DNA of 35,376 bases from a virus. Numbering within the stretch: position 1 is the stretch's first letter; the number at the start of each line of letters is the position of its first letter. Below, one piece after another: positions 1,780 through 35,376 of this stretch. Below the pieces are notes generated by a model. That model was not told the DNA's origin. It did not search any database and was given only the letters and a program-made list of their open reading frames with translations. The position numbers were made by a program, and so were the translations under genes. The stretch lies in the IMG/VR virus record IMGVR_UViG_3300009034_000129, positions 1 to 35,376 of that record, one strand, 5' to 3'.

Positions 1780-3177
1780 ATGAATAAGAAAGCATTGGTA
1801 GTTATTCTCTTTTTAGCATTACTTATTTCTGGTTTCTGGGTGAAAGACAATCTCTATATAGATGACGACATCTATCTCAATGATGATAAAGTAGATAGTA
1901 CTACTGTAATTATCATCATAAGGAATGGTGGACAGGATACAGTTGTAATTATAGATACTTTGGGAACGTTAAGGTTTACTATCCCTTATGTCATTGATTC
2001 GATTCATACAAGCGACAGCCTTAAAACAAGAATTATATTTTGTAATAATAAAGCAATGGTGAAACAAACAACTACCCGTAAGAGTTTAGAAGTATTGAAT
2101 GACCAAGATTATGCCGCTCACATTAGTGCAATACAAGATACGGGTTTATTGGTGAGTGCTGGACAGAGTTGGGGATTGATTGTTACAGTAACCGATTCAT
2201 TGTCAGGTGAATTCAATTCTGCTATGATGGGAGTTATTTCTAAAGTAGCAGTGACTGATACAATATTTCCAAATAATAGTTATGCTTTTTATGGTACTGC
2301 TGAAGATAGTTTTGGGCTTTGGGTTAAAGCGGGGTATCATACTATTTATGCAGAGGCTTGCTCTTCCGGGGCTTTAGTTGCATACTTCCAAGGGGATAAT
2401 GGAATAATGGTAACAGATACAATAGATACCATTATTACCCGTCCAGATGAAATTATATTGAATCCAAGAGATGCGAGTGATAGTTCAGCAACGAATTCGC
2501 CACCTATAGAGTTTATTTCAAAAGGGGATACAGCAACGGGAAACAATGTTGCTCAGGTATCTCAAAAAATATATATACAAGCCAGAGGAACGTTTGCAGG
2601 TGATGGTGTTCTTCCTAATTATTGGCTTTCATTTAGAGATAGTTCAGCTGTAGGAGTTACACCTGGAGGGACTGAAATAGCAAGGCTTCTTCCTACACAC
2701 TTTGAGGTATTAAGTGCAACCGATACTATAAGATGTTATCCAACAAAAGCAGAAGCAGATACGGGAGATTTTGATTATGTTTTTGGCGACGGCTCAGGTT
2801 TAACAAATATAACGGTTCTTAAAATACTGGAATTTTCTTTTAATGAAGAAGGGCAATCTTACCTCAGAACACTTAATACAACATATACAGTTATGGGTAG
2901 TTTTATTTTTCGTGGCACAAATGAAATTGGCACACCGACTAAAATTGCTATTGTAGGGCATACAACAGCGGACAGCGTAGCTTTCAGAATATACGATTAT
3001 ACCAACAGCCAAACAATAGCAGAAACAACACAAATAACAAATGCCACAAAAACCATAATAAATATTAACACGATTTCCAACGTGCCCGCCACTGAGGCAA
3101 TCTGGGAAATACAAATGTATAAAACAGGGCTTGGAGCAACTTATGGCTATTTGCACGCTCTCGGAGTTCATTTTTAA
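1780..3177 (+). CDS. Fibre-like protein with N-terminal membrane/signal segment
   Basis: A 465-residue protein with a strong AGGAGG site just before ATG 1780. Residues 1-4 are MNKK, followed by a hydrophobic stretch at about 5-21, which looks like a signal peptide or signal anchor. The rest is Thr/Ser/Asp-rich and beta-rich. Around residue 240 there is an NSPPIEF segment, and near residue 340 a GDGSGLTNI motif; both types of segment recur in phage tail fibres and related surface proteins. A fibre or receptor-binding role is inferred. The export-type N-terminus is odd for a virion protein, since tails assemble in the cytoplasm. The alternative is a phage-encoded surface protein displayed on the infected cell. 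Confidence 0.65.
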   Translation: MNKKALVVILFLALLISGFWVKDNLYIDDDIYLNDDKVDSTTVIIIIRNGGQDTVVIIDTLGTLRFTIPYVIDSIHTSDSLKTRIIFCNNKAMVKQTTTRKSLEVLNDQDYAAHISAIQDTGLLVSAGQSWGLIVTVTDSLSGEFNSAMMGVISKVAVTDTIFPNNSYAFYGTAEDSFGLWVKAGYHTIYAEACSSGALVAYFQGDNGIMVTDTIDTIITRPDEIILNPRDASDSSATNSPPIEFISKGDTATGNNVAQVSQKIYIQARGTFAGDGVLPNYWLSFRDSSAVGVTPGGTEIARLLPTHFEVLSATDTIRCYPTKAEADTGDFDYVFGDGSGLTNITVLKILEFSFNEEGQSYLRTLNTTYTVMGSFIFRGTNEIGTPTKIAIVGHTTADSVAFRIYDYTNSQTIAETTQITNATKTIININTISNVPATEAIWEIQMYKTGLGATYGYLHALGVHF

Positions 3178-8217: not shown

Positions 8218-9069
8218 ATGCCACAGGGAAGAATAATATTGAAATCAATTTGTCAGAGTAAGAAAATGCCAAAGTTAAAAACTGATGGAGCAAGGTTGCT
8301 TTATACCTGGCTCCTGACTAATCTCGATATTAATGGTTGTTTTTCTGGTAACATTCAAGATATAAAAGGACAAATTTTTACAAGATTAAAACACTCACTT
8401 AAAACAATAGAATCCTATTTACAAGATTTAGAGAAAAATGACCTTATTGTTCGTTACGAAGTAGATGAAGAAGATTATATTTTTGTCCCCGATTTTGTTA
8501 AAAAGCAACCAAAATTAAGGGCTGACAGAGAAGCAGAGCCAACTATACCTTTACCAACTCAGGAGCAACTCAGGAGTAACTCAGGAGTAACTCCGGGTAC
8601 AAGTAAAGTAAAGTTTAAGTTAAAGAAAAGTATAAGTAAAGATAAAAGAAAGAAAAAACCTTTTGTTGAAAATTCTATCGAATTTCAACTTTCCAAATAT
8701 CTTTTTGATTTAATCAGAAAAAGGAAGCCAGATTTCAAAAAACCAAATAAAGAGAAGTGGACAGAACATATTGATAAAATGATTCGATTAGATAAGAGAA
8801 AACCAAAACGGATTCGAGAAATAATCAAGTGGTGTCAACAAGATGGTTTCTGGCAAAACAATATCTTATCAACTGAGAAACTAAGAAAACAGTTTGATCA
8901 GTTAGAGCTGAAAGCAGATTCAAAAAAAGAGAAGAAAGAAGATGAGTTAATAAAACAAGCGGAGGAATGTTCACGATATGCGGGTCCGAACTGTGTCTAT
9001 GAAACTTCTGGTACACCTGAAAAAATTTGCAAGTACTGCCATAGATATAAAAAAAAGGAGAAGCAATGA
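8218..9069 (+). CDS. Phage replication initiator / replisome organizer
   Basis: A 283-residue protein. Residues about 1-105 form a winged-helix domain of the type found in phage replisome organizers (KLKTDGARLLYTWLL, IKGQIF, DLIVRYEV, then VPDFVKKQ and DREAEPTIPLP). Residues 110-150 are a low-complexity basic linker that carries the iterons. Residues about 155-230 match the usual C-terminal domain of such proteins (IREIIKWCQQDGFW, NILSTEKLRKQFDQL). The end holds a Cys cluster (CSRYAGPNC, CKYC), a possible zinc site. It should bind the origin and load host replication proteins. ATG 8218 lacks an SD site, unlike most genes here. Confidence 0.8.
   Translation: MPQGRIILKSICQSKKMPKLKTDGARLLYTWLLTNLDINGCFSGNIQDIKGQIFTRLKHSLKTIESYLQDLEKNDLIVRYEVDEEDYIFVPDFVKKQPKLRADREAEPTIPLPTQEQLRSNSGVTPGTSKVKFKLKKSISKDKRKKKPFVENSIEFQLSKYLFDLIRKRKPDFKKPNKEKWTEHIDKMIRLDKRKPKRIREIIKWCQQDGFWQNNILSTEKLRKQFDQLELKADSKKEKKEDELIKQAEECSRYAGPNCVYETSGTPEKICKYCHRYKKKEKQ
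8556..8599 (+). repeat. Iterons inside the initiator gene (candidate replication origin)
   Basis: Four consecutive 11-bp units of the form AACTCAGGAGY lie at 8556-8566, 8567-8577, 8578-8588 and, degenerate, 8589-8599. Eleven is not a multiple of three, so the repeats do not produce a repeated peptide, which argues for selection at the DNA level. A strongly A-rich segment without cytosine follows (about 8601-8660), suitable as an unwinding element. Iterons within the initiator gene followed by AT-rich DNA is the arrangement of the lambda O origin. Confidence 0.72.
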
Positions 9070-9218: not shown

Positions 9219-9987
9219 CCATATTAGTTATTCTCAGTTATCAATGTATTCCCGTTGTGGAGAGCAATATCGTAGAAGATATATTGAAGGTGAAAAAATT
9301 CCTCCTGGGATTGCTTTGATTAGAGGTATTTCGATTCACAAGGGAGCGGAGGAGAACAATAAATATAAACTTGCAACAAAGAAAGACAAGAAAAAATCTG
9401 ACATAATCGAAGTTGTTTCTGCTACTTTCGATGACAAACTAAAAGACGGTATATGGCTCACAAAAGAGGATAAATCTCGCAAGAGTCAAATAATTGGAGA
9501 GAGTAAAGATGACACGGTTAAACTTGCTGGTTTATACTGTGATGAAACCGCTCCACAAATTATGCCTGATAAGATAGAACTCTGGTTTGAGATTCCTCTT
9601 GAAACCACAAAACTCACAGGGCGTATTGATATTATAGATGACAAAGGTTTTGTGAGAGATCTAAAAACAGCAAGTAAAAGCAAAAATCAAAGAGTTATTG
9701 ATTTAACATCTCAGCTGACTTGTTACGCTCTTGCTTATGAGTTTCTCTTTGGTAAACCACCGTCAAACATTGTTTTGGATGTTCTTGTAAATACGAAAGT
9801 TCCGAAATATCAATTCCTTGAAACAAAGAGATCCCACAAAGATATTGACATCCTTTTGAAACGGTTGAATACAATGCTAATGGGAATCGAAAAAGGCGTT
9901 TTCATGCCCGCGGATCCTGGTGAAAGCTGGATGTGTGATGAAAAATGGTGTGGATACTTCTGGACATGCCCTTATAGAAATCCATAG
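9208..9987 (+). CDS. RecB/Cas4-like PD-(D/E)XK nuclease with Fe-S type cysteines
   Basis: A 259-residue nuclease of the RecB/Cas4/AddB superfamily. The front ISYSQLSMYSRCGEQYRRRY carries Cys17. The active site is seen as GRIDIID (Asp141) and DLKTAS (Asp151, Lys153), followed by the helix SQLTCYALAYEFL. Cys243, Cys248 and Cys254 near the C-terminus together with Cys17 form the four-cysteine Fe-S staple typical of the group. It would process DNA ends, most likely as the exonuclease partner of the annealing protein at 10325. ATG 9208 is chosen for its distance from AAGGAGGT (9196-9203); GTG 9202 or ATG 9211 are alternatives. Confidence 0.87.
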   Translation: MMIDHISYSQLSMYSRCGEQYRRRYIEGEKIPPGIALIRGISIHKGAEENNKYKLATKKDKKKSDIIEVVSATFDDKLKDGIWLTKEDKSRKSQIIGESKDDTVKLAGLYCDETAPQIMPDKIELWFEIPLETTKLTGRIDIIDDKGFVRDLKTASKSKNQRVIDLTSQLTCYALAYEFLFGKPPSNIVLDVLVNTKVPKYQFLETKRSHKDIDILLKRLNTMLMGIEKGVFMPADPGESWMCDEKWCGYFWTCPYRNP

Positions 9988-20070: not shown

Positions 20071-20485
20071 ATCAAGACAACCTTACACAGAAAGAGAGCA
20101 AAATTTAATTCTCACTTTCTATGAAATGGGAACTACGGATAAAATGATTGCAGATGCTTTAAAAGAGCCTTATACAACTTTTAAAGACCGTTGTGGTTAC
20201 ACAATCTTTTATAAAAATGTGTTGAATGAAAAAGGAAAGATTGCAATGTTATCCGACATTATAAAAAAAGTTAAGAATATTGCTGATTTACAGGTTGAAG
20301 CATCTCTTTATATTCAAGCAAAAAAGGGGAAACTTGGAGCAATCTGTGTATGGCTATTTAATCGTATGCCTGAAAAATGGAAGACAGTGCAACATATCAA
20401 AATAGTAAAAGAGGTAAAAGAAGTTGTAGCAGAAATGACCGAGAAGGAGACTAATGAACTTTTCTCTGAACTTGTTAAAAAATAA
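20063..20485 (+). CDS. terS: Terminase small subunit (putative)
   Basis: A 140-residue protein starting at TTG 20063 (AKSRQPYTEREQ), where a weak AAGGCGG site precedes it; the open frame extends further upstream within the methyltransferase gene, which is less likely to be used. The N-terminal part is a helix-turn-helix (ILTFYEMGTTDKMIADAL), and the centre carries AICVWLFNRMPEKWK, a segment typical of phage small terminases. It would recognise phage DNA and regulate the large subunit. It overlaps the large terminase gene by 32 bases. Confidence 0.75.
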   Translation: MAKSRQPYTEREQNLILTFYEMGTTDKMIADALKEPYTTFKDRCGYTIFYKNVLNEKGKIAMLSDIIKKVKNIADLQVEASLYIQAKKGKLGAICVWLFNRMPEKWKTVQHIKIVKEVKEVVAEMTEKETNELFSELVKK

Positions 20486-21899
20486 GAAACTCACTCGGTA
20501 CGAAAAAGACCTCTGCATTAAGCACGAAACTCTTAATAATCTCTTTTTCTTTGAGAAGGAAATACTTGGATATAAAGACCTTGGACCCGAGCATCAGGAA
20601 TGGTGCTGGGATCTCGAGTATATGCTTAAAGAAGGTATTAATCTTTCACTCTCATTAGCTCCACGTATTACATATAAGACTACTGTTAGAACCAAAGGAT
20701 ATGCACTCTGGAGACTTACGAAAAATCCAGACCTTAGAATTTTACTTTTAAGTGACCTTGCTGATAATTCAAAAGGATTTCTAAGGGAAGCAAAGATACA
20801 CTGTGAACGCAATGAACGTTTCAGGTATTACTTTGGTGACTGGGTTAGTGAGAAATGGAGCGAATCTGAAATTGTTATTAAACCTCGGAAATCGAAATAC
20901 TCTGAAGGCAGTCTCACAGCTAAAGGTTTAGACTCAACCATTACCTCAAAGCATTATGATATTATAATAGGAGATGATCTTGTAGTGAGAAAAGATAGAG
21001 AGAGTGAGGCAACTCGCAAGATGAAGATAGAACGCTTTAAAGAACTTCCAAGCTTGCTTACAGAGAACGGAGAGATACATCTTGTAGGCACTCGATGGCA
21101 CTCTGACGACCTTTATCACTTTATAATCAATAAGCTTAATAAAGAACTTAAAGCAGAAAATAAACCTCAGTATAGAGTCACCTGTCAGTCAGCTCTTAAC
21201 AAAGACGGTGAGAGTAACTTCCCAAGTGTTTATTCAGTGGAAGACTTGAAACTTAAAGAAATCCTTGTTGGAATGGTGGTATACGCTTGTAACTATTTGA
21301 ACGATCCGTTAGCCGAAGGCACACAGATATTTCCTATAAAAGACCTTAAACTTTTCAATTATAATAAGTTTGAGCAAGAATATATTAACAGCAAGAAGCA
21401 TATTGATTTCTATGGTTTCATAGATCCATCTCTTGGAGGGGCAGGAAGCGATTATGTATGCATCATTATTGCAGCAGTGCCAAAGAATGGATATGTTTAT
21501 ATTCTGGAATGTAAGATGGTGCGTATACCTCCAACAAGACAGATTTCTACCATTATGGATGCTCAGAGAAGATACAAATTCAAGAAGTTTGGGATTGAGA
21601 CTAATATGTTCAGAGGACTCTTAAAGAAATACATTGAGGAGTTCTCAGCAAAAGAACGTTCATATATCAAGCTTTACAAAATAAACCAGACAAAGAATAA
21701 ACAGGTGCGGATTGAGGCTTCAGAACCAATGGTCAAGCAATATGTTTACTTTAGAGATGACTACCAACTGGCTTATCCACTACTTATGCATCAGCTTGAG
21801 AACTTTCCAATTACAACTCACGATGACGGACCGGATGCACTCGAGGGGCTTCTTAGTATAACTAAAGGCAAAGGCAAAGCACAGATTTATTTTGGCTAA
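20454..21899 (+). CDS. terL: Terminase large subunit
   Basis: A 481-residue packaging motor. The ATPase domain shows a deviant Walker A APRITYKTT (69-77), Walker B DIIIGDD (169-175) and the coupling motif GTRWH (212-216). The RNase H-like nuclease has Asp324 in FIDPSLGG, Glu382 in GIETN and Asp457/Asp458 in DDGPDAL. It pumps DNA into the prohead through the portal and cuts the concatemer. The Walker A lacks the usual glycines, as is known in some terminases. GAAGGAGA precedes ATG 20454. Full length for the family. Confidence 0.93.
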   Translation: MNFSLNLLKNKKLTRYEKDLCIKHETLNNLFFFEKEILGYKDLGPEHQEWCWDLEYMLKEGINLSLSLAPRITYKTTVRTKGYALWRLTKNPDLRILLLSDLADNSKGFLREAKIHCERNERFRYYFGDWVSEKWSESEIVIKPRKSKYSEGSLTAKGLDSTITSKHYDIIIGDDLVVRKDRESEATRKMKIERFKELPSLLTENGEIHLVGTRWHSDDLYHFIINKLNKELKAENKPQYRVTCQSALNKDGESNFPSVYSVEDLKLKEILVGMVVYACNYLNDPLAEGTQIFPIKDLKLFNYNKFEQEYINSKKHIDFYGFIDPSLGGAGSDYVCIIIAAVPKNGYVYILECKMVRIPPTRQISTIMDAQRRYKFKKFGIETNMFRGLLKKYIEEFSAKERSYIKLYKINQTKNKQVRIEASEPMVKQYVYFRDDYQLAYPLLMHQLENFPITTHDDGPDALEGLLSITKGKGKAQIYFG

Positions 21900-23938: not shown

Positions 23939-24382
23939 ATGAAGAAGTATATTTTTATCGGTTTTATCTTATTGGCAATGTTGCTCTCTGTTATTACTGT
24001 TGCCAAGACTTCTTACAAAAGGAGAGTTCTAATTGACCTCTTTGTTTCTGATAGTGATACAGTTCTTACTCAAAGAACTGCAGACTCCTTCCGGGATAGC
24101 ACTCTGATTATAGGAGGTTTAGAGCAAGGGGTTCAAATACAAGTATGGTTAGTGTTTTTTGGAGATACAGGAAGTGTCCGATATATCTGGTATTATGGGC
24201 ATGATTTAGATTATATGAAACCAGAAACACTTCTGGATACAACGGTTCTAATTGGAGACACACTTAATAAGATTTTAACAGTAACAAATTGGAAAACAAC
24301 ATATGGCTCATTTATGATGGAAGATAGTATTGAAGCTGGAGGGGATAGCGTGAAAGGGAAAGTAATTGAATATGAGCAATAA
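23939..24382 (+). CDS. Exported or membrane-anchored head-module protein
   Basis: A 147-residue protein with AGGAGGT before ATG 23939. The N-terminus (MKKYIFIGFILLAMLLSVITV, given here as residues 1-21 in two parts: MKKYIF and the hydrophobic core 5-21) is a typical signal peptide or anchor, with a possible AKT cleavage region. The mature part is rich in Asp, Ser and Thr and beta-like. It lies between portal and protease, where head genes are expected. It is similar in design to the proteins at 1780 and 27023. Function unknown. Confidence 0.6.
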   Translation: MKKYIFIGFILLAMLLSVITVAKTSYKRRVLIDLFVSDSDTVLTQRTADSFRDSTLIIGGLEQGVQIQVWLVFFGDTGSVRYIWYYGHDLDYMKPETLLDTTVLIGDTLNKILTVTNWKTTYGSFMMEDSIEAGGDSVKGKVIEYEQ

Positions 24383-24394
24383 GGAGGTGAAATA

Positions 24395-25756
24395 ATGGGA
24401 AAACTATTTCATTATTTTTATAAAGAAGGTTGCAAAATCTCTGATGTTTCAGAGAAGGAAAGGTCGCTTATAGTTACGCTCTCTGATAGAACTCAGGACA
24501 GATACGATGAGATAATGAACATCGATGGAGTAATTTTGAAAAACTTTGTGGGAAAGAACGCTCCTCATCTTTGGATGCATAATATGAAAGAACATTTACC
24601 ACCGCTTGGTTTATATCAATGGGTTAGAATTATAGAAAGGAAATTGCGAGGGAAAATTCTCTTTATGGACAATGAATTTTCAATGTCAATTCATTGGATG
24701 CATACTCATCCCGAAGGGAAGAAAGTGAAGTTCCTTAATGGTATATCAATCGGGTTTGATCCAAAAATAATGAGGGATGGAGAGGAGCTAACTGATAAGG
24801 AAAAGAAAAATGGTGTCAGCAGAGTTCATGAGAGCTGGGAGCTTCTTGAGGGTTCGAGTGTAACAGTTGGAGCTAATCCAAATGCACTTTCAGATGCTTA
24901 TGCAAAAGGACGAATTCCAGACATAATATATAAAGATTTCAATGAGCTTTTGGAAGAGAAAGATCCACTTATTCAATATAAGACATTCATTAACGGTGCA
25001 GACTTTGAGGAAGAACCAGAGAGCAAAGAAGATGAGCCTGAACCTCAAGAGGATAAGACAGATATGGATATAGAATTTGGAGAGCTTTTATCTGATGAAG
25101 ATGTAAAATTCATATCAGAAGAAAAACCTTTTCCTAATGAACATTCGGCACGCCTTCAAGATCCGAAAAAATTTAATCCTGAAACATTTCGGAGAAAAAA
25201 AGATGGAACTATTTATGGGAGAATAAAAGTTCCTAATACAGTTGCAGTGATATGGGGAAAAATTAAAGGAAGAGACAAACCTGCTGATAATCCAATTCCC
25301 CAGGCTTTAAGATTTCCAACCAAAGATTGGACTGTTATTGCTGCTAAAAAATGGCTCAAAGATAACAATATTAAATTTATCAGTTTTGAGCCTGCAGGAA
25401 AGGAATTTGGAGGAGAAACATCAGATGAAGAAAAAATAGGAAAGGACCTCATAGAACTCATCGGAGAGGAGATTGCAATTAAAGTGATTAAAGAAGAGAT
25501 AGGGCTTCTGGAAGCACTTGAAGAGTTTGACAAGCAGAAGAAAGAGAAGGAGAAGGAAATCGACCTCGACTTCGAGGATGATGATAAAAGTTCTCAGAGT
25601 GAAGAACCAGAGAAGTCAGATGAAATCGACCTTTCTGACCTCACTGAAGAAGACGCAAAAGAAATCGGTGAGAAAATCGGAGAGGAAGTCATTAGAGGCT
25701 TCAGGAAGAACGTTCTGGGAAAAGTTGACAATGAACCTGAAACAAAGGAGCAGTAA
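24395..25756 (+). CDS. Prohead protease with inserted domain and scaffold-like tail
   Basis: A 453-residue protein. Residues about 15-170 match HK97-family prohead proteases, with SDRTQDRYDEIM, LWMHNMKEHLPPLG (His62 or His67), FLNGISIGFDP (Ser117) and SWELLEGSSVTVGANP. Residues about 235-340 form a separate domain (NEHSARLQDPKKF, then ALRFPTKDWTVIAAKKWLKD) that I have seen attached to phage proteases and portals. Residues 345-453 are a highly acidic, Lys/Glu-rich helical tail suited to scaffolding. One gene therefore appears to supply both protease and scaffold, with the protease expected to remove the tail. Confidence 0.82.
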   Translation: MGKLFHYFYKEGCKISDVSEKERSLIVTLSDRTQDRYDEIMNIDGVILKNFVGKNAPHLWMHNMKEHLPPLGLYQWVRIIERKLRGKILFMDNEFSMSIHWMHTHPEGKKVKFLNGISIGFDPKIMRDGEELTDKEKKNGVSRVHESWELLEGSSVTVGANPNALSDAYAKGRIPDIIYKDFNELLEEKDPLIQYKTFINGADFEEEPESKEDEPEPQEDKTDMDIEFGELLSDEDVKFISEEKPFPNEHSARLQDPKKFNPETFRRKKDGTIYGRIKVPNTVAVIWGKIKGRDKPADNPIPQALRFPTKDWTVIAAKKWLKDNNIKFISFEPAGKEFGGETSDEEKIGKDLIELIGEEIAIKVIKEEIGLLEALEEFDKQKKEKEKEIDLDFEDDDKSSQSEEPEKSDEIDLSDLTEEDAKEIGEKIGEEVIRGFRKNVLGKVDNEPETKEQ

Positions 25757-26967
25757 TGAGCATGAAATTCAAAAATAAAGAGGAGCTTATCGCTTCTCTG
25801 GTTCCTGGAGTGAGTAAATCATTCTTTGAGCAACCAGAGATAAAGGAACTCTTGGAGAAGCATGAAGCTATTAAGAACGTGAATGTTGACGATCTCCAGG
25901 GAAGAAAGGAAACAAAATATATTCAGGCATCACGTTTCATGAGAGCACTTGCTCAAGGCAACCAAACGAAGTTGAAAGAGATCAATGAGGAGCAACATGA
26001 TGCATACTTCAAGCATTTCTATGGTATGTATGGAGATGATATAGAGAAAAAAGCACTCACTACATATCTAAATGAGACAGTTGGAGCTGAAGGTCAATAT
26101 CTTGTACCTCTGGAGTATTACGTCGGGATTTTCGAGATTATATGTGCCTATGGTGTAGCAAGAAGAGAATGCTTAAACGTTCCCGTAGCTCGGCAGGAAA
26201 TGAAACTCAATTCCATAACGGGGCTTCCCACAACTTATTGGATCGGAGAAAAGGCAAAGAAAACTGAGAGTAAACCCACCTTTGACCAGAAAGCACTCAA
26301 ACCTGAAAAGCAGATTGCTTTGATTCCTTTCAGTGAAGAGGTTCTTGCAGATGCCACTCCTCCATTGATTGCTCTTCTGGTTAGACTCACAGGACGTGCA
26401 ATGATGGCAGGGGAAGATGCTGCATTATGGAGCGGAGCAGGCACTGGTGTTTGTGGTGGAGCAGGTGTAGGAATCCTCAATGACACCAATGTTTATACAG
26501 TTCCAATGGATGCGGGACAAACAAGCTTCGAAGACATCACTTACAAACATCTTCTTGCACTGGCTGATGCTGTGGATTGTGAAAGTGATGAGGGAGGAAG
26601 TTTCTATCTCAACAAGAACATTCTCAGATGGCTCAGAGAGCAGGAAGACTTGCAGGGTAGACCTATACTTCAGCCTGCAAATGCAGGAGAGCCTCCTCAA
26701 CTGGTAGGTTATCCTTTCATTAAATCGTCGAAGCTTCCGGGGAATGCAGCTGATGCAACTGACACTCCATTTATGGTTTTTGGCAACCTCAAGAATTGTG
26801 TAGCTTTTGGAGACCGTCAGGCAATGGCAGTTAAATTGCTGACTGAGGCAACAATCTCAGACGTTAATCTTGCAGTCTATGACTTGCAGGCTTTAAGGTT
26901 TGTTGAGAGGGTTGACATCGAGATTATGCTTCCAAAAGGAATCAGCGTTCTCAAAACACACGCATAA
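25756..26967 (+). CDS. Major capsid protein (HK97 fold)
   Basis: A 403-residue protein. The first 110 residues are helical and charged, like the delta/scaffold arm removed by prohead protease. The core begins near ETVGAEGQYLVPLEYY and includes QEMKLNSITG, KQIALIPFSEEVLADA, the long helix LIALLVRLTGRAMMAGEDAA, GAGTGVCGGAGVGIL, and a C-terminal AFGDRQAMAVK and LRFVERVDIEIM. These follow the order of Phage_capsid family members. It would build the icosahedral shell. Start ATG 25756 overlaps the protease stop (TAATG). Confidence 0.93.
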   Translation: MSMKFKNKEELIASLVPGVSKSFFEQPEIKELLEKHEAIKNVNVDDLQGRKETKYIQASRFMRALAQGNQTKLKEINEEQHDAYFKHFYGMYGDDIEKKALTTYLNETVGAEGQYLVPLEYYVGIFEIICAYGVARRECLNVPVARQEMKLNSITGLPTTYWIGEKAKKTESKPTFDQKALKPEKQIALIPFSEEVLADATPPLIALLVRLTGRAMMAGEDAALWSGAGTGVCGGAGVGILNDTNVYTVPMDAGQTSFEDITYKHLLALADAVDCESDEGGSFYLNKNILRWLREQEDLQGRPILQPANAGEPPQLVGYPFIKSSKLPGNAADATDTPFMVFGNLKNCVAFGDRQAMAVKLLTEATISDVNLAVYDLQALRFVERVDIEIMLPKGISVLKTHA

Positions 26968-27022
26968 ACAATTTGAAAGAAAGGAGGATTTAATAATAAC
27001 ACTTAAAACAAAGGAGGAAGAC

Positions 27023-27484
27023 GTGAAACGAATATTTCCCTTTATACTTGCTCTGTTATTTATCTTTTCATTCTTTGCACCACAGGTTGAAGGAGCAAGA
27101 GCATACACTCACTGGGAGCTTATCAGCACGGATACACTAACAGATCAAGCTGCATGCACGCTTTATACTCAAACTCATAGAGTTTTTCCCGATAGTTCAT
27201 ATTGGCAAATGGGTTTTAGCACTAACCAAGCAAATGATAGTGTTGATTTGAAAATAGATGCTTACTGGGGAGTTGATTCAACATCGGGACCTTGGACAGA
27301 CGCTCAAGCTGTTGCAGCAAACCATACTGTAGATGATTATATAATGACACCATACGCATCTGAATTTATAAGTAAATGGTTTGAATGGGAAAAAATAATT
27401 ATTTTAGGGAATGCTGGGAATGGAGTAAGTACGATTGTGAAAACCTATATTGGTTATCGTAAATACTGGTTAAAAGAAAAGTAG
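27023..27484 (+). CDS. Secreted protein downstream of capsid gene (GTG start)
   Basis: A 153-residue protein starting at GTG 27023 after AAAGGAGG. Residues 1-25 are a textbook signal peptide (MKRIFPFILALLFIFSFF, then VEGA before ARAY). The mature part is rich in Thr, Ser, Asp and aromatic residues, with repeated strands. There is no cysteine pair beyond one Cys. It could be a capsid decoration protein, but the signal peptide argues for a periplasmic or surface protein made late in infection. A second SD (AAAGGAGG at about 26981) upstream has no partner start. Confidence 0.62.
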   Translation: MKRIFPFILALLFIFSFFAPQVEGARAYTHWELISTDTLTDQAACTLYTQTHRVFPDSSYWQMGFSTNQANDSVDLKIDAYWGVDSTSGPWTDAQAVAANHTVDDYIMTPYASEFISKWFEWEKIIILGNAGNGVSTIVKTYIGYRKYWLKEK

Positions 27485-27502
27485 GTCCTGTTTGTTCATC
27501 TT

Positions 27503-27531
27503 AAAGGGGTAGGTTAAACTCCTGCCCCTTT
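27503..27531 (+). terminator. Hairpin after the secreted-protein gene (weak terminator or stabiliser)
   Basis: AAAGGGGTAGG (27503-27513) pairs with CCTGCCCCTTT (27521-27531), 11 pairs with one G-U, around a seven-base loop, followed by only TTG before more coding sequence. With a very short T run it is probably a partial terminator or an mRNA-protecting hairpin that raises the level of the capsid message relative to the following genes. Confidence 0.6.
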
Positions 27532-27548: not shown

Positions 27549-27944
27549 ATGATTATGTCAAAGAAAGCACGTGAGGCTACAAAGAAGAAAAAGGAGGAGG
27601 AAGCAAAACGGAAAGCTGAAGAAGAAGCAAGAAAAAACGCTGAACCAGAGACTCCTCCAGAGAATAAATCCCCTGACAACCAGAAGAAGGAAGAAGAGGG
27701 AAAGAAAGAAGAACCACCAATAGAGGAAGAGAGCAAGTATCATCACAAGGGCATGGTTCGAGTGAAAACACAAAGAGGTCTTTATATTCCAACAGGGAAA
27801 AGCGGACTTCCTTATAGTGTTCCAAAGGGTGAAATTGTAAGAGTGGAAAAAAAGGTTTTTGATGATTCCGGGAAAGACCTTGAAGAACTTGAAGACGGAC
27901 CCACTTCAAAGGAAATGATTGAGGAAGAGAGTAAAAAAAAATAA
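27549..27944 (+). CDS. Charged coiled-coil/beta head-module protein
   Basis: A 131-residue protein. Residues 1-68 are low-complexity Lys/Glu/Ala, forming a helix (KKKEEEAKRKAEEEARKNAE) and a Pro-rich linker. Residues 70-110 form a small beta domain (GMVRVKTQRGLYIPTGKSG, LPYSVPKGEIVRVE). The 3' end is a run of nine A residues (27933-27941) just before the stop, where a -1 slip would add 22 residues. Placed between capsid and connector genes, it could be a head accessory or decoration protein. AAAAGGAG precedes ATG 27549. Confidence 0.7.
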   Translation: MIMSKKAREATKKKKEEEAKRKAEEEARKNAEPETPPENKSPDNQKKEEEGKKEEPPIEEESKYHHKGMVRVKTQRGLYIPTGKSGLPYSVPKGEIVRVEKKVFDDSGKDLEELEDGPTSKEMIEEESKKK

Positions 27945-28006
27945 CCAAAGGTAGCTTTTTTAAGAATGTTATTACTCCTAAAGACTTTGGTGCTAACAAG
28001 GGATGA
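27933..28006 (+). other. Candidate -1 frameshift extension of the 27549 gene
   Basis: The A-only run 27933-27941 can be read A_AAA_AAA in the zero frame. After a -1 slip the frame continues from 27941 as ITKGSFFKNVITPKDFGANKG and stops at TGA 28004-28006. A perfect seven-base stem ACCAAAG (27944-27950) with CTTTGGT (27985-27991) follows, though its spacing to the slip site is short. The extension fills most of an otherwise unusual 89-base gap and looks protein-like. A homopolymer assembly error would give the same picture. Confidence 0.5.
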
Positions 28007-28033: not shown

Positions 28034-28567
28034 ATGGGATTGGTAAACCTTAAAGACCTGAAGAAATTCATTCACTACACAGAGAGCGAAGACAATTCTT
28101 TACTTAAAGATATCCTCGATGGAGAACTTGCCACACTCGATAAGTATGTCAACCAGAAGCTTGAGCAGGAAGAAATTACTGAGTATTATGATGGTGAAAG
28201 AGACAATATAATTATTCTTAAGAACGGTTTTGTTACTGCAGTTGCGCATGTGAAAATCGACTATGATGCAGACGGGACTTATGAAGAAGAACTTACTTAC
28301 CCTGACGAATATGCTTTCAAATTAATAGGAGAGATTATAAAAAGAGCGGGATATTTTCCAGAAGGAATACAGAACATAGAAGTTAAATATACTCACGGTT
28401 TCACTGCTGATAATATTCCAGGAGACCTCAAACTTGCAATTCTCAAACAATGTGCAAACACTTTCAGTGCAACTTTTAATGTATTAGAAGAAGAAGGGGA
28501 AGCAAAAAAGTTTTCTCAGAAATCTATTGATATGGTATTTGCAAAATACAAGAGGTATACTGTATGA
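28034..28567 (+). CDS. Head-tail connector (gp6/gp15-like adaptor)
   Basis: A 177-residue protein with the features of the phage head-tail connector fold. It opens GLVNLKDLKKFIHYTESEDNSLLKDILDGE, in two parts here (NLKDLKKFIHY, DNSLLKDILDGE), followed by EYYDGERDNIIILKNGF, YTHGFTADNIPGDLKLAILKQCA, and a final basic helix. Proteins of this kind form the ring under the portal. Order in the genome (after capsid) is as expected. SD AGGAG before ATG 28034. Confidence 0.8.
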   Translation: MGLVNLKDLKKFIHYTESEDNSLLKDILDGELATLDKYVNQKLEQEEITEYYDGERDNIIILKNGFVTAVAHVKIDYDADGTYEEELTYPDEYAFKLIGEIIKRAGYFPEGIQNIEVKYTHGFTADNIPGDLKLAILKQCANTFSATFNVLEEEGEAKKFSQKSIDMVFAKYKRYTV

Positions 28568-30474: not shown

Positions 30475-30894
30475 ATGCAAGAGAGAGACAGCACACTTGT
30501 CGCTCAGAAATTTCTTTATCCCTCCATTGCTAAGGTCGCGAGAGGTTACGGAAAATTCATAAAGCATCTTCATAAAGCAGGAGGTTTCAGCAAGCTGAAC
30601 CCTGAGAAGATGACTAAAGAGATTCTCGATGCAGCATGTAAGAGCGTTCTTGACAATGCTGAAGAAGTCTTCGGGGCTCATGGTGATGCCATAATGGAAA
30701 TCGTACCCGCGAGTCTCAGAATAGATCCAGATTCTCCGGAAGGTAAAGAAAAGCTCGAAAACCTCGATGCTGAGGTTTGTATGGATTTATTCCCTTCAGC
30801 GCTGGAGGTGAATGCGGGTTTTTTTACGAAACTTTTGCGATCCATTCTCGACAGCATATTCAGCCTATCTACACAACGACCGAAAAAGACGTAG
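30475..30894 (+). CDS. Tail assembly chaperone (gpG-like)
   Basis: A 139-residue helical protein immediately before the tape measure gene. Proteins here coat the tape measure during tail assembly. The zero-frame product ends at TAG 30892-30894. The T7 run at 30819-30825 allows a fraction of ribosomes to slip -1 into the overlapping frame, giving the longer gpGT-type product. SD AAAAGGAGG before ATG 30475. The arrangement is diagnostic even though sequence similarity to lambda G is not visible. Confidence 0.85.
   Translation: MQERDSTLVAQKFLYPSIAKVARGYGKFIKHLHKAGGFSKLNPEKMTKEILDAACKSVLDNAEEVFGAHGDAIMEIVPASLRIDPDSPEGKEKLENLDAEVCMDLFPSALEVNAGFFTKLLRSILDSIFSLSTQRPKKT
30819..30825 (+). other. -1 ribosomal frameshift site T_TTT_TTT
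   Basis: In the zero frame the codons read GGT TTT TTT ACG, so the heptamer T TTT TTT (30819-30825) fits X XXY YYZ exactly. A -1 slip continues as TAC GAA ACT in the frame ending at 31103. The predicted fusion has 117 residues before and 92 after the slip, 209 in total. Confidence 0.85.
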
Positions 30895-33031: not shown

Positions 33032-35376
33032 AAGCAGCATCAACTGCATTTCAGGAAATCAGAAAGAGACTCCATATCGCTCCTGATTCCTCTGGAGCTA
33101 ATAAGGTTAAGACAAAGGTTGAACTCACAGAGGTTCAGGTTGACAATACCATTGAACTTGTTGAAGGCGATCTTCTTATCTCTGTTGGAGAAATAAGAGA
33201 TAGACTTGAGGGAACGAAACTTAACAGTTTTGCTCCATCAGAAGTTGTAGTCACACTTCACGATCCACAGGATTATCCTGTATTTTATAAAGCTGACGGT
33301 TCTGGACTTTTTGATGATCTTGGTAAGAAATATCAGGCTAAAGTTTACAAGGGAATGGAGATTGGTGGCTCAATGGAATGGTGGGAAATGTTCGATGGTG
33401 AAGTGAAAAATAATACCATAGAGAGAAAAGGACATCATAGAATTGAGCTTACTGTAATTGGATGGCTCAAAGAAGCAGAGCGGTATAATGCGGAAGAGGT
33501 TGCTGACCCTAATAATTTTCCTTTTAAGAATATAAAAGGAATTTCTTTTGTTGGTCTTAGTGGAGAACATCCAATAACAGGAGCAAAGACATTATCTTTT
33601 TCTATTGAAGATGAAAAAAATTATTTACAATATGAAGGAGGCATTAAAAAAGAGATTTCTGCTGATGGTAATTTTAATTGTTTCAGTGCTACAAGGGAAG
33701 AATATATAACTTTGGCTTGTGATATTTCAGAGATGCCTACTGAAAGTAAAACTGATAATTTTCCTATAATAAATTACGGAGGAACATTCCACGCTTGCTA
33801 TTGGTATGAGAATATCCCACTTGAAACCATTGTAAATTATCTTATAGACAAACTTGAGGAAGGAACTCCAGGAGCTATTACAAGAGATATAGATGTAAGA
33901 GAAATCGAATCAGAACTTGAAAAGAACTTTGTTTATTTGGGACCCAAACTCTTTATGCCGAACAATAATTTGGCAATCAGTGCTTTTATAACTGCGGTAA
34001 AATTAATTGACTATAATGCAGGAACGAATGTTATTACTTTTCTTATAGGAGTGCGTTCAAGAGTAGATGGGAATGTTTTTAATGACAAAAATTATTGTTA
34101 TAAAATTGTGATTGATGTAAACAATGATACTTATACAGCAACACGAATTACAGTTGAAATCAACACGGAATATCAGTTATCAAGATTTCTGCATTTTGCA
34201 AATAGATGGTGGGTTGTTTTGGGTTATCCAACAGAATGTGATTTAACTCCGAATGACCCCTATCGTTATTGGGCTTATAAGATTTACAGATTCAATGTTG
34301 CATTGACAACGACTGATTATGTTTTAAATTTTGGTTCAAATCCACCTTCAAATAATTATTCTGGTGATGATGATTGGTATATCTATCTTGTACATACTGC
34401 CGAAGTATTGGAAGGAACAAGCAATGATATGTATATAATTTTACAGGATAGGTCTTCCGGGGTTTATAGAGTTTTATTGAGAAAGTTTAATTGGAACGGT
34501 TCGATATTGGTTGAAAGCGTCGTGGATACTCTTGGCTTTTATGATTCAGGTGAAATACTGAGCGGTCTTATTTCAGATGATTATGCCACAATTTTTAAAC
34601 TTGATAATACAAATAAGAATTATGTATATGGAATTAGACATATCACTTATGCTCCAGGAGGGTATGATATAAACGATTTACAGATTCGGAGATACGATAT
34701 AGATGTCGTTACTTTTACTACTATTAAAGAACACAATAGCGTATATGGTGGTGTGGTTAATATGTCAAGAAATCTCCACATTCCAAACAATCACTGGAGG
34801 GCTTTTTATTATTATCAAAGCTCTGCGATTCCATATTATCGAGGTTATTGGATTGATAAAAATGGTATTGCATGGGTTCCCGTTACGGGAAATAATAAAA
34901 CAAATTATATCTTTTCTTCTCTTTTTACTCGCTATGATATGTGGTGGATGCATAATCCAGGAACTAACAGTTGGAGGATAGGCAGGAAAGATGTTGAATC
35001 AGATTATCAGGATTATATAGAAGCAAAATATTTATTTTCTGATTATGAAGGCAGTCAAGTTGCTCCTATGGTATACAAAGAAAATGATGTTACAGATTGC
35101 GAATATTGTGGAGTTGTTCTCGATAAAAATGACAGAGGAATTGTTCCATTTCTTTATAGAGCAAATGCTCTCTCGACGGTTCACCTTGCAGATTTTACAG
35201 ATATGTCAGTAAGGAGAGCACTTACTGAACTCGGTATTTTTGCTCTTGATATTGTTTCACGTCCAGGATTATTGAAAGTTATTTTTCGATATAGAGAGTC
35301 TTTCAGGGATACTGATACACTTGACTCCAATGATTGTGATGCTTATCCAGTTGTAAAAATATGGAAGCATTATTAT
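33028..35376 (+). CDS. Tail-tip/baseplate protein (continues across the join to 527)
   Basis: Start ATG 33028 overlaps the tape measure stop (ATGA). The frame is open to the window end and continues at position 3 of the left end to the stop at 527, 918 residues in total. Residues about 20-190 are a beta-rich tail-tip-like front (FAPSEVVVTLHDPQDYPVFY, WWEMFDGEVKNN). Residues about 370-670 are a Tyr/Trp/Asn-rich series of strands that resembles a beta-propeller-like insertion. The C-terminal part (from about 690, CEYCGVVLDKND) returns to a mixed domain with SVRRALTELGIFALDIV. By position it is the tail-tip hub or distal tail protein. Confidence 0.8.
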   Translation, partial: MKAASTAFQEIRKRLHIAPDSSGANKVKTKVELTEVQVDNTIELVEGDLLISVGEIRDRLEGTKLNSFAPSEVVVTLHDPQDYPVFYKADGSGLFDDLGKKYQAKVYKGMEIGGSMEWWEMFDGEVKNNTIERKGHHRIELTVIGWLKEAERYNAEEVADPNNFPFKNIKGISFVGLSGEHPITGAKTLSFSIEDEKNYLQYEGGIKKEISADGNFNCFSATREEYITLACDISEMPTESKTDNFPIINYGGTFHACYWYENIPLETIVNYLIDKLEEGTPGAITRDIDVREIESELEKNFVYLGPKLFMPNNNLAISAFITAVKLIDYNAGTNVITFLIGVRSRVDGNVFNDKNYCYKIVIDVNNDTYTATRITVEINTEYQLSRFLHFANRWWVVLGYPTECDLTPNDPYRYWAYKIYRFNVALTTTDYVLNFGSNPPSNNYSGDDDWYIYLVHTAEVLEGTSNDMYIILQDRSSGVYRVLLRKFNWNGSILVESVVDTLGFYDSGEILSGLISDDYATIFKLDNTNKNYVYGIRHITYAPGGYDINDLQIRRYDIDVVTFTTIKEHNSVYGGVVNMSRNLHIPNNHWRAFYYYQSSAIPYYRGYWIDKNGIAWVPVTGNNKTNYIFSSLFTRYDMWWMHNPGTNSWRIGRKDVESDYQDYIEAKYLFSDYEGSQVAPMVYKENDVTDCEYCGVVLDKNDRGIVPFLYRANALSTVHLADFTDMSVRRALTELGIFALDIVSRPGLLKVIFRYRESFRDTDTLDSNDCDAYPVVKIWKHYY
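35258..35376. repeat. Terminal direct repeat, right copy
   Basis: Identical to positions 1-119. Removing one copy gives a 35,257-bp circle in which the tail-tip gene is intact. Confidence 0.95.

Follow-up and report, generated by a model that had tools for sequence, protein, structure and literature searches.

Gene Content and Features of the Locus

The window, i.e., the whole stretch of DNA that was analysed, comprises 35,376 bases of an IMG/VR virus record (IMGVR_UViG_3300009034_000129) and has a G+C content of 36.8%. Its ends carry a 119-base direct terminal repeat (1–119 and 35258–35376), and it is one base shorter than the virus record (35,377 bases). The best-ranked match of the terminase (20454–21899) among phage records is to the ANMV-1 virus of an uncultured archaeon, at 35.5% identity.

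The gene examined here is an ORF of 131 codons on the plus strand (27549–27944), the product of which ends in ...EEESKKK. Upstream lie the major capsid gene (phrog_10, 25756–26967), which is unbroken, and a gene whose product has a hydrophobic N-terminus (about 26957–27484); the next gene downstream, also on the plus strand, encodes a head-tail adaptor (phrog_442, 28034–28567) and starts 89 bases past the stop of the ORF. Judged by this position, 27549 is a head-module gene. The N-terminal half of its product is rich in Lys and Glu, and a conserved core extends over approximately residues 65–130. Hydrophobic, signal-peptide-like starts were seen by eye in three genes of the structural regions (26957–27484, 23939–24382 and 1780–3177), and the first two of these have relatives of 50–65% identity in both of the related viral contigs described below (L007 and L008). 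Such starts seem unusual in genes neighbouring a capsid gene.

The 3′ end of the ORF reads AGT AAA AAA AAA TAA. As an earlier note on this DNA had observed, nine A residues (plus strand, 27933–27941; AAA AAA AAA in the zero frame) directly precede the zero-frame stop (TAA, 27942–27944). This putative slippage site is the only A run of its length in the window, where five runs of eight come next, and within it the slippery heptamer A_AAA_AAA (27935–27941) is in phase with the zero frame. A TAA at 27932–27934 closes the -1 frame just upstream. With one stop on either side, a switch from the zero to the -1 frame is possible only within the A residues.

Past the run, the -1 frame (27941–28006, plus strand) encodes ITKGSFFKNVITPKDFGANKG and ends at a TGA (28004–28006). 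The earlier note had described a tail of 22 residues ending 28 bases before the next gene; the tail itself was confirmed, with its size corrected to 21 residues past the lysines (22 codons counting the stop) and the spacing to 27 bases between its stop and the ATG at 28034. Its frame lacks ATG, GTG and TTG, so that a separate small gene was rejected, and taken together with the -1-frame stop upstream this means that the tail can be reached only by a -1 change at the A run.

A 7 bp perfect stem (ACCAAAG/CTTTGGT, arms at 27944–27950 and 27985–27991 on the plus strand) with a 34-base loop lies downstream. It exists as the earlier note had stated, but a part in stimulating frameshifting found no support. 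Three pseudoknot-free folds of the region gave z-scores of 1.13, −0.20 and −0.15 against dinucleotide shuffles, and a stimulatory structure was rejected because its stability was not significant relative to those shuffles. A search of Rfam at E ≤ 1 returned no frameshift element; one sub-threshold match was found elsewhere (27425–27528, E 0.17). Upstream of the run, a Shine-Dalgarno-like AGGA (27922–27925, plus strand) stands 10 nt ahead of the P-site codon in A_AAA_AAA. Its surroundings are purine-rich coding sequence, which makes it a weak candidate for a functional signal.

Related Viral Contigs

A terminase scan of viral contigs supplied three relatives (L007, L008 and L009) that are syntenic with the window over the terminase, portal, protease, capsid, adaptor and further genes. 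Since L008 and L009 differ at one of 17,361 aligned bases, they were counted as one, leaving two independent relatives. In both, the counterpart of the 27549 gene is a single ORF (145 aa in L007 and 144 aa in L008) that lacks an A run and ends in ...EATISSKDFGGKKE and ...ENTISSKDFGGKKE, respectively; the adaptor gene starts 3 bases past this intact gene. Neither a slippery site nor a change of frame is present in L007 or L008/L009, where the gene is read in one frame throughout. The core of the window protein is 55% identical to that of L007 and 48% to that of L008. In the alignment, the zero-frame protein of the window ends short of the C-terminus of its relatives, and the -1-frame tail supplies the missing part. 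The check suggested earlier, a search for homologues carrying the extension in one frame, was thus positive in both independent relatives. As far as could be seen from these sequences, the frame break appears to be specific to the lineage of the window.

A profile built from the three full-length gene sequences matched only L007, L008/L009 and loci identical to the window, and more distant loci (L004–L006) were examined via their ORF listings. Relatives of 80–99% identity were found neither in viral contigs, which were searched with six different proteins through five single-sequence queries from the window and three alignment queries, nor in genome contigs. When five window proteins were compared with phage records by tblastn, the capsid, adaptor, terminase and portal proteins all gave matches below 60% identity, and the 27549 gene gave none.

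The relatives differ from the window in several other respects. Their adaptor (L007, 10522–11319; L008, 13299–14096) is 265 aa long versus 177 aa in the window, and carries an inserted segment of about 90 residues that is absent from the window version (28034–28567). Identity between the window and L008 is 38–65% from the terminase to the adaptor, and 71–86% over the stretch that begins with the 28564 gene and extends to the tail tube; in that first gene, identity to L007 is about 50%. A mosaic junction relative to L008 is possible at about position 28560 of the window. The -1 overlap of the tail chaperone reads CCG AAA AAG ACG TAG in the window (30877–30894) and CGG AAA CAG ACA TAG in L008 (16447–16464), where a standard slippery heptamer is not evident by eye.

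Conservation of the Tail in the -1 Frame

An open -1 frame is weak evidence by itself, because 24 of the 43 genes checked also have a -1 frame that stays open for at least 21 codons past their own stop, many running into the next gene, and because base composition alone gives a probability of about 0.18 for an open tail frame. The case for the tail comes from its similarity to the in-frame C-termini of L007 and L008/L009, to which it is homologous. Aligned with the L008 tail it scores 46, a value reached by none of 20,000 shuffles; the score with L007 is 32, a modest match when taken alone (43 of 20,000 shuffles), and when 3,999 open stretches of 21 codons were drawn from the six frames of the window, none reached either score. 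The end sequences are ISSKDFGGKKE in the relatives and ITPKDFGANKG in the window. Continuations in the zero and +1 frames scored only 6–12 against the tail of the relatives, and were rejected as lacking similarity to it.

Adding the tail to the query improved the tblastn E-values from 1.4e-13 to 1.4e-15 for L007 and from 1.5e-10 to 3.4e-14 for L008, with a single HSP in each case. In the reverse direction, the L008 protein aligns to two separate frames of the window, its tail part at E 1.8e-4; the corresponding value for the L007 tail is 0.037. The codon usage of the tail (0.365 bits per codon, versus an in-frame mean of 0.275) exceeds that of 71% of in-frame stretches, and its score is matched by none of 506 off-frame open stretches and by 2.9% of 662 antisense open stretches. 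Homology and codon usage led to the rejection of a chance open frame.

Over 22–23 aligned residues, the tail is 50% identical to that of L008 and 43% to that of L007. It is therefore about as diverged as the core, and shows no visible decay. The tails of L007 and L008 share 17 of 19 aligned residues, with five synonymous codon differences. Judged by these comparisons, the -1 frame encodes a genuine and conserved C-terminus, and the combination of a frame break, as sequenced, with a conserved tail is well supported. The locus presents two features expected of a poly-A slippage-rescued gene: an A run long enough for slipping at the break, and a homologous, undecayed continuation out of frame. 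Such a gene would also give mRNAs of mixed length and a full-length product.

Depletion of Long A Runs

The frequency of A runs in 46 hand-chosen coding sequences, the last of which runs off the end of the window, was set against synonymous shuffles made gene by gene. Runs of at least nine A occur once, against 5.71 expected (two of 500 shuffles were as low), and runs of at least eight occur four times, against 12.67 expected (one of 500 shuffles). T runs in the same 46 sequences showed no clear depletion. Just one of 12 KKK triplets is written AAAAAAAAA, and it is the one at the frame break. Long A runs would appear to be costly in the host of this phage, most simply via slipping of the polymerase or ribosome.

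Possible Function of the Protein

Sequence searches gave little indication of function. For the window protein, PHROG gave no match at E ≤ 0.1 and nothing in Pfam or NCBIfam passed the cut-off, and direct comparison with the lambda gpFI sequence found no match. The L008 protein gave a sub-threshold match to Pfam DUF6465 (E 0.016; 15.7 bits versus a cut-off of 26). Weak matches to phrog_92 (DNA packaging chaperone FI) were seen with the L007 protein (E 0.047) and the L008 protein (E 1.3). A sequence search of solved structures returned four matches, none of them to a phage protein; the best (E 0.0038) falls on the charged half, and the next (E 0.16) on profile positions 14–104.

An AlphaFold model of the L008 protein, made from three sequences, has a mean pLDDT of 64 and contains a small beta domain at approximately residues 65–110. 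Neither PDB nor BFVD gave a fold match to the L008 protein at E ≤ 0.001; the best from BFVD was an uncharacterised myovirus protein (E 3.8e-3). The C-terminal domain of gpFI (2lsm) ranked third in the Foldseek PDB search with the beta domain (E 0.67, TM 0.55 by target length), and by VIA-align it stood at rank 47 (Z 3.5), behind many other chains. The top VIA-align rows were chains of CMG/GINS complexes (Z 5.0–5.6 over 46–49 residues), which are read as reflecting a small beta arrangement of a common kind.

The position of the gene, between the major capsid gene (25756–26967) and head-tail connector genes (the adaptor at 28034), resembles that of FI in the lambda series E, FI, FII. In lambda, the capsid lattice is bound by gpFI, for which a role in bringing terminase and DNA together with the prohead has been proposed (PMC4856287). 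Position, together with the weak profile and fold matches, suggests that the 27549 product may resemble gpFI as an accessory factor that acts at the capsid while DNA is being packaged, a weakly supported lead rather than a classification.

Explanations for the Frame Break

The reading we favour, to which we give an even chance, is that RNA polymerase or the ribosome probably gets past a lineage-specific poly-A frame break by slipping, so that a packaging accessory protein, possibly gpFI-like, is made in two forms, a short one and a minor one of ancestral length. The ancestral gene would have encoded a protein of about 150 residues in one frame, as in the related phages. In the present phage, as sequenced, the frame is broken at the A9, just ahead of the last 21 codons. 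RNA polymerase may slip on the A9 to give a fraction of transcripts with an altered number of A residues; alternatively, ribosomes may slip by -1 on A_AAA_AAA ahead of the UAA, with the same product. The outcome would be mostly the 131-residue form plus a minor form of ancestral length, and the sole long A run would be placed where slipping restores the ancestral protein.

Whether both the short and the long forms are made is about evenly balanced, and a very recent, unrescued frameshift fits equally well, because the searches found no relative of 80–99% identity that would show the A9 being kept while bases around it drift. Such a frameshift would be real and present in the population, leaving only the 131-residue form and a freshly dead tail; in a variant of this explanation, the tract would be a reversible, phase-variable on/off switch. 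Replication tends to slip on poly-A runs (PMC3711429, PMC3017870), and the relatives have no A run; the tail has just 21 residues, and that of the relatives is a low-confidence coil in the model, so that its loss may be tolerable. Against this, the tail has no stop, its codons are coding-like and its identity is close to that of the core, and the near-identity of the L007 and L008 tails, with synonymous changes between them, points to constraint in those relatives. We regard an unrescued frameshift as a minority explanation, unlikely and yet to be taken seriously.

A more ambitious extension of the slippage reading is that the A9 is a kept switch, through which a one-frame packaging accessory protein has come to be made as two isoforms. 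Their ratio would be set by slippage of RNA polymerase or the ribosome, long A runs would be kept rare in the other genes, and the tail, with its KDFG motif, would act in a minority of subunits. This is offered tentatively, as a rather doubtful proposal.

Alternatively, the A run may have been miscounted locally in assembly, or the population may be a mix of run lengths with A9 as the consensus, in which case the gene would really be in one frame. The longest A run of the window does sit exactly at the break, and both independent relatives are one-frame. A second contig (L002, IMGVR_UViG_3300009034_000380), however, is identical to the window at 9,245 of 9,245 bases, including the A9, although it may share the same sample and is perhaps not independent. 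When 12 window genes were compared with L008 (tail chaperone omitted), the 11 besides 27549 stayed in one frame over their matched parts; they belong to the packaging, head and tail region, and include the protease and adaptor, which each match in two pieces but in one frame. The assembly therefore does not appear to be frame-damaged in general. Three A8 runs lie inside ORFs, and two of these sit 29 and 138 codons before the stop, the ORFs running on past them. The third (9049) is four codons before the stop of the 8218–9069 ORF and is uninformative on frame damage. It lies within the ribosome-binding site of the next ORF, whose ATG overlaps the stop (9049–9069), an arrangement resembling ordinary translational coupling; a second break at this run was rejected, as slippage is not needed there. 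A miscounted or mixed run is accordingly judged improbable.

The remaining explanation is that, as in phage capsid genes, a programmed -1 ribosomal frameshift operates here that is dedicated, conserved and stimulated by a stem. It can draw on the in-phase A_AAA_AAA before the UAA, the AGGA located 10 nt ahead of the P-site codon and the perfect 7 bp stem, but is very improbable given relatives without a slippery site or frame change, a stem no more stable than shuffles and no Rfam frameshift element at E ≤ 1. The locus was not filed in that class because structure and conservation were both tested and gave negative results. What stands of the possible programmed frameshift put forward in the earlier note is the -1 switch at the A run as the sole route to the tail; its programmed ribosomal part has weaker support.

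Should slippage at the A9 be real, the list of phage recoding events would gain a two-form head-region protein, produced by a route easily missed in annotation, where the poly-A break lies behind an apparently normal stop. It would also show a one-frame gene becoming dependent on slippage, with intact relatives available for comparison. Should it not be real, a frame break has been caught that is worth flagging by annotators, and this protein family now has a likely full-length end.

Comparison with Known Systems

Among the papers listed, titles and abstract openings yielded no prior description of a poly-A frame break in a comparable head accessory gene. Within phages, the capsid frameshifts of T3/T7, A2, A118 and PSA (PMC5009743) are alike in affecting a head-module gene and yielding a short product alongside one that is extended at the C-terminus; they concern major capsid genes, whereas the capsid gene of the window is unbroken and the relatives found do not share the site. 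Lambda gpFI is of similar length (132 aa) and shares the locus between the major capsid and head-tail connector genes, but there is no significant sequence match and only a weak fold match, and an extra gene (26957–27484) intervenes in the window. The methyltransferase CPt10_0091 of a Campylobacter phage likewise has a distal poly-A frameshift for which slippage was suggested; it is a different gene, and the accessible part of that publication proposes slippage with no test reported (PMC2853527).

Runs of this length are slippage-prone in bacterial systems. According to PMC3711429, magnesium-chelatase cassettes in E. coli give 63, 40 and 10% frameshifting at 11, 9 and 7 A residues, and Thermus dnaX uses a run of nine. 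The insect endosymbiont Blochmannia resembles the present case in having lineage-specific poly-A indels in otherwise intact genes, with transcriptional slippage proposed as the correction, but those genomes carry 114–153 coding tracts of at least nine A, whereas the phage is depleted in such runs and has one (PMC3017870).

The closest worked-out parallel would seem to be tssM1 of Citrobacter rodentium (PMC4256274). There too the gene is interrupted soon after a poly-A run, the ancestral C-terminus is intact in another frame and proteins of two lengths result, with the run rescuing expression at 20–25%. The tssM1 run is an A11 rather than an A9, and what it restores is a large domain rather than a tail of 21 residues. 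Slippage in tssM1 was demonstrated by mass spectrometry and function, while in the phage it is proposed from the sequence of a gene that its relatives keep in one frame.
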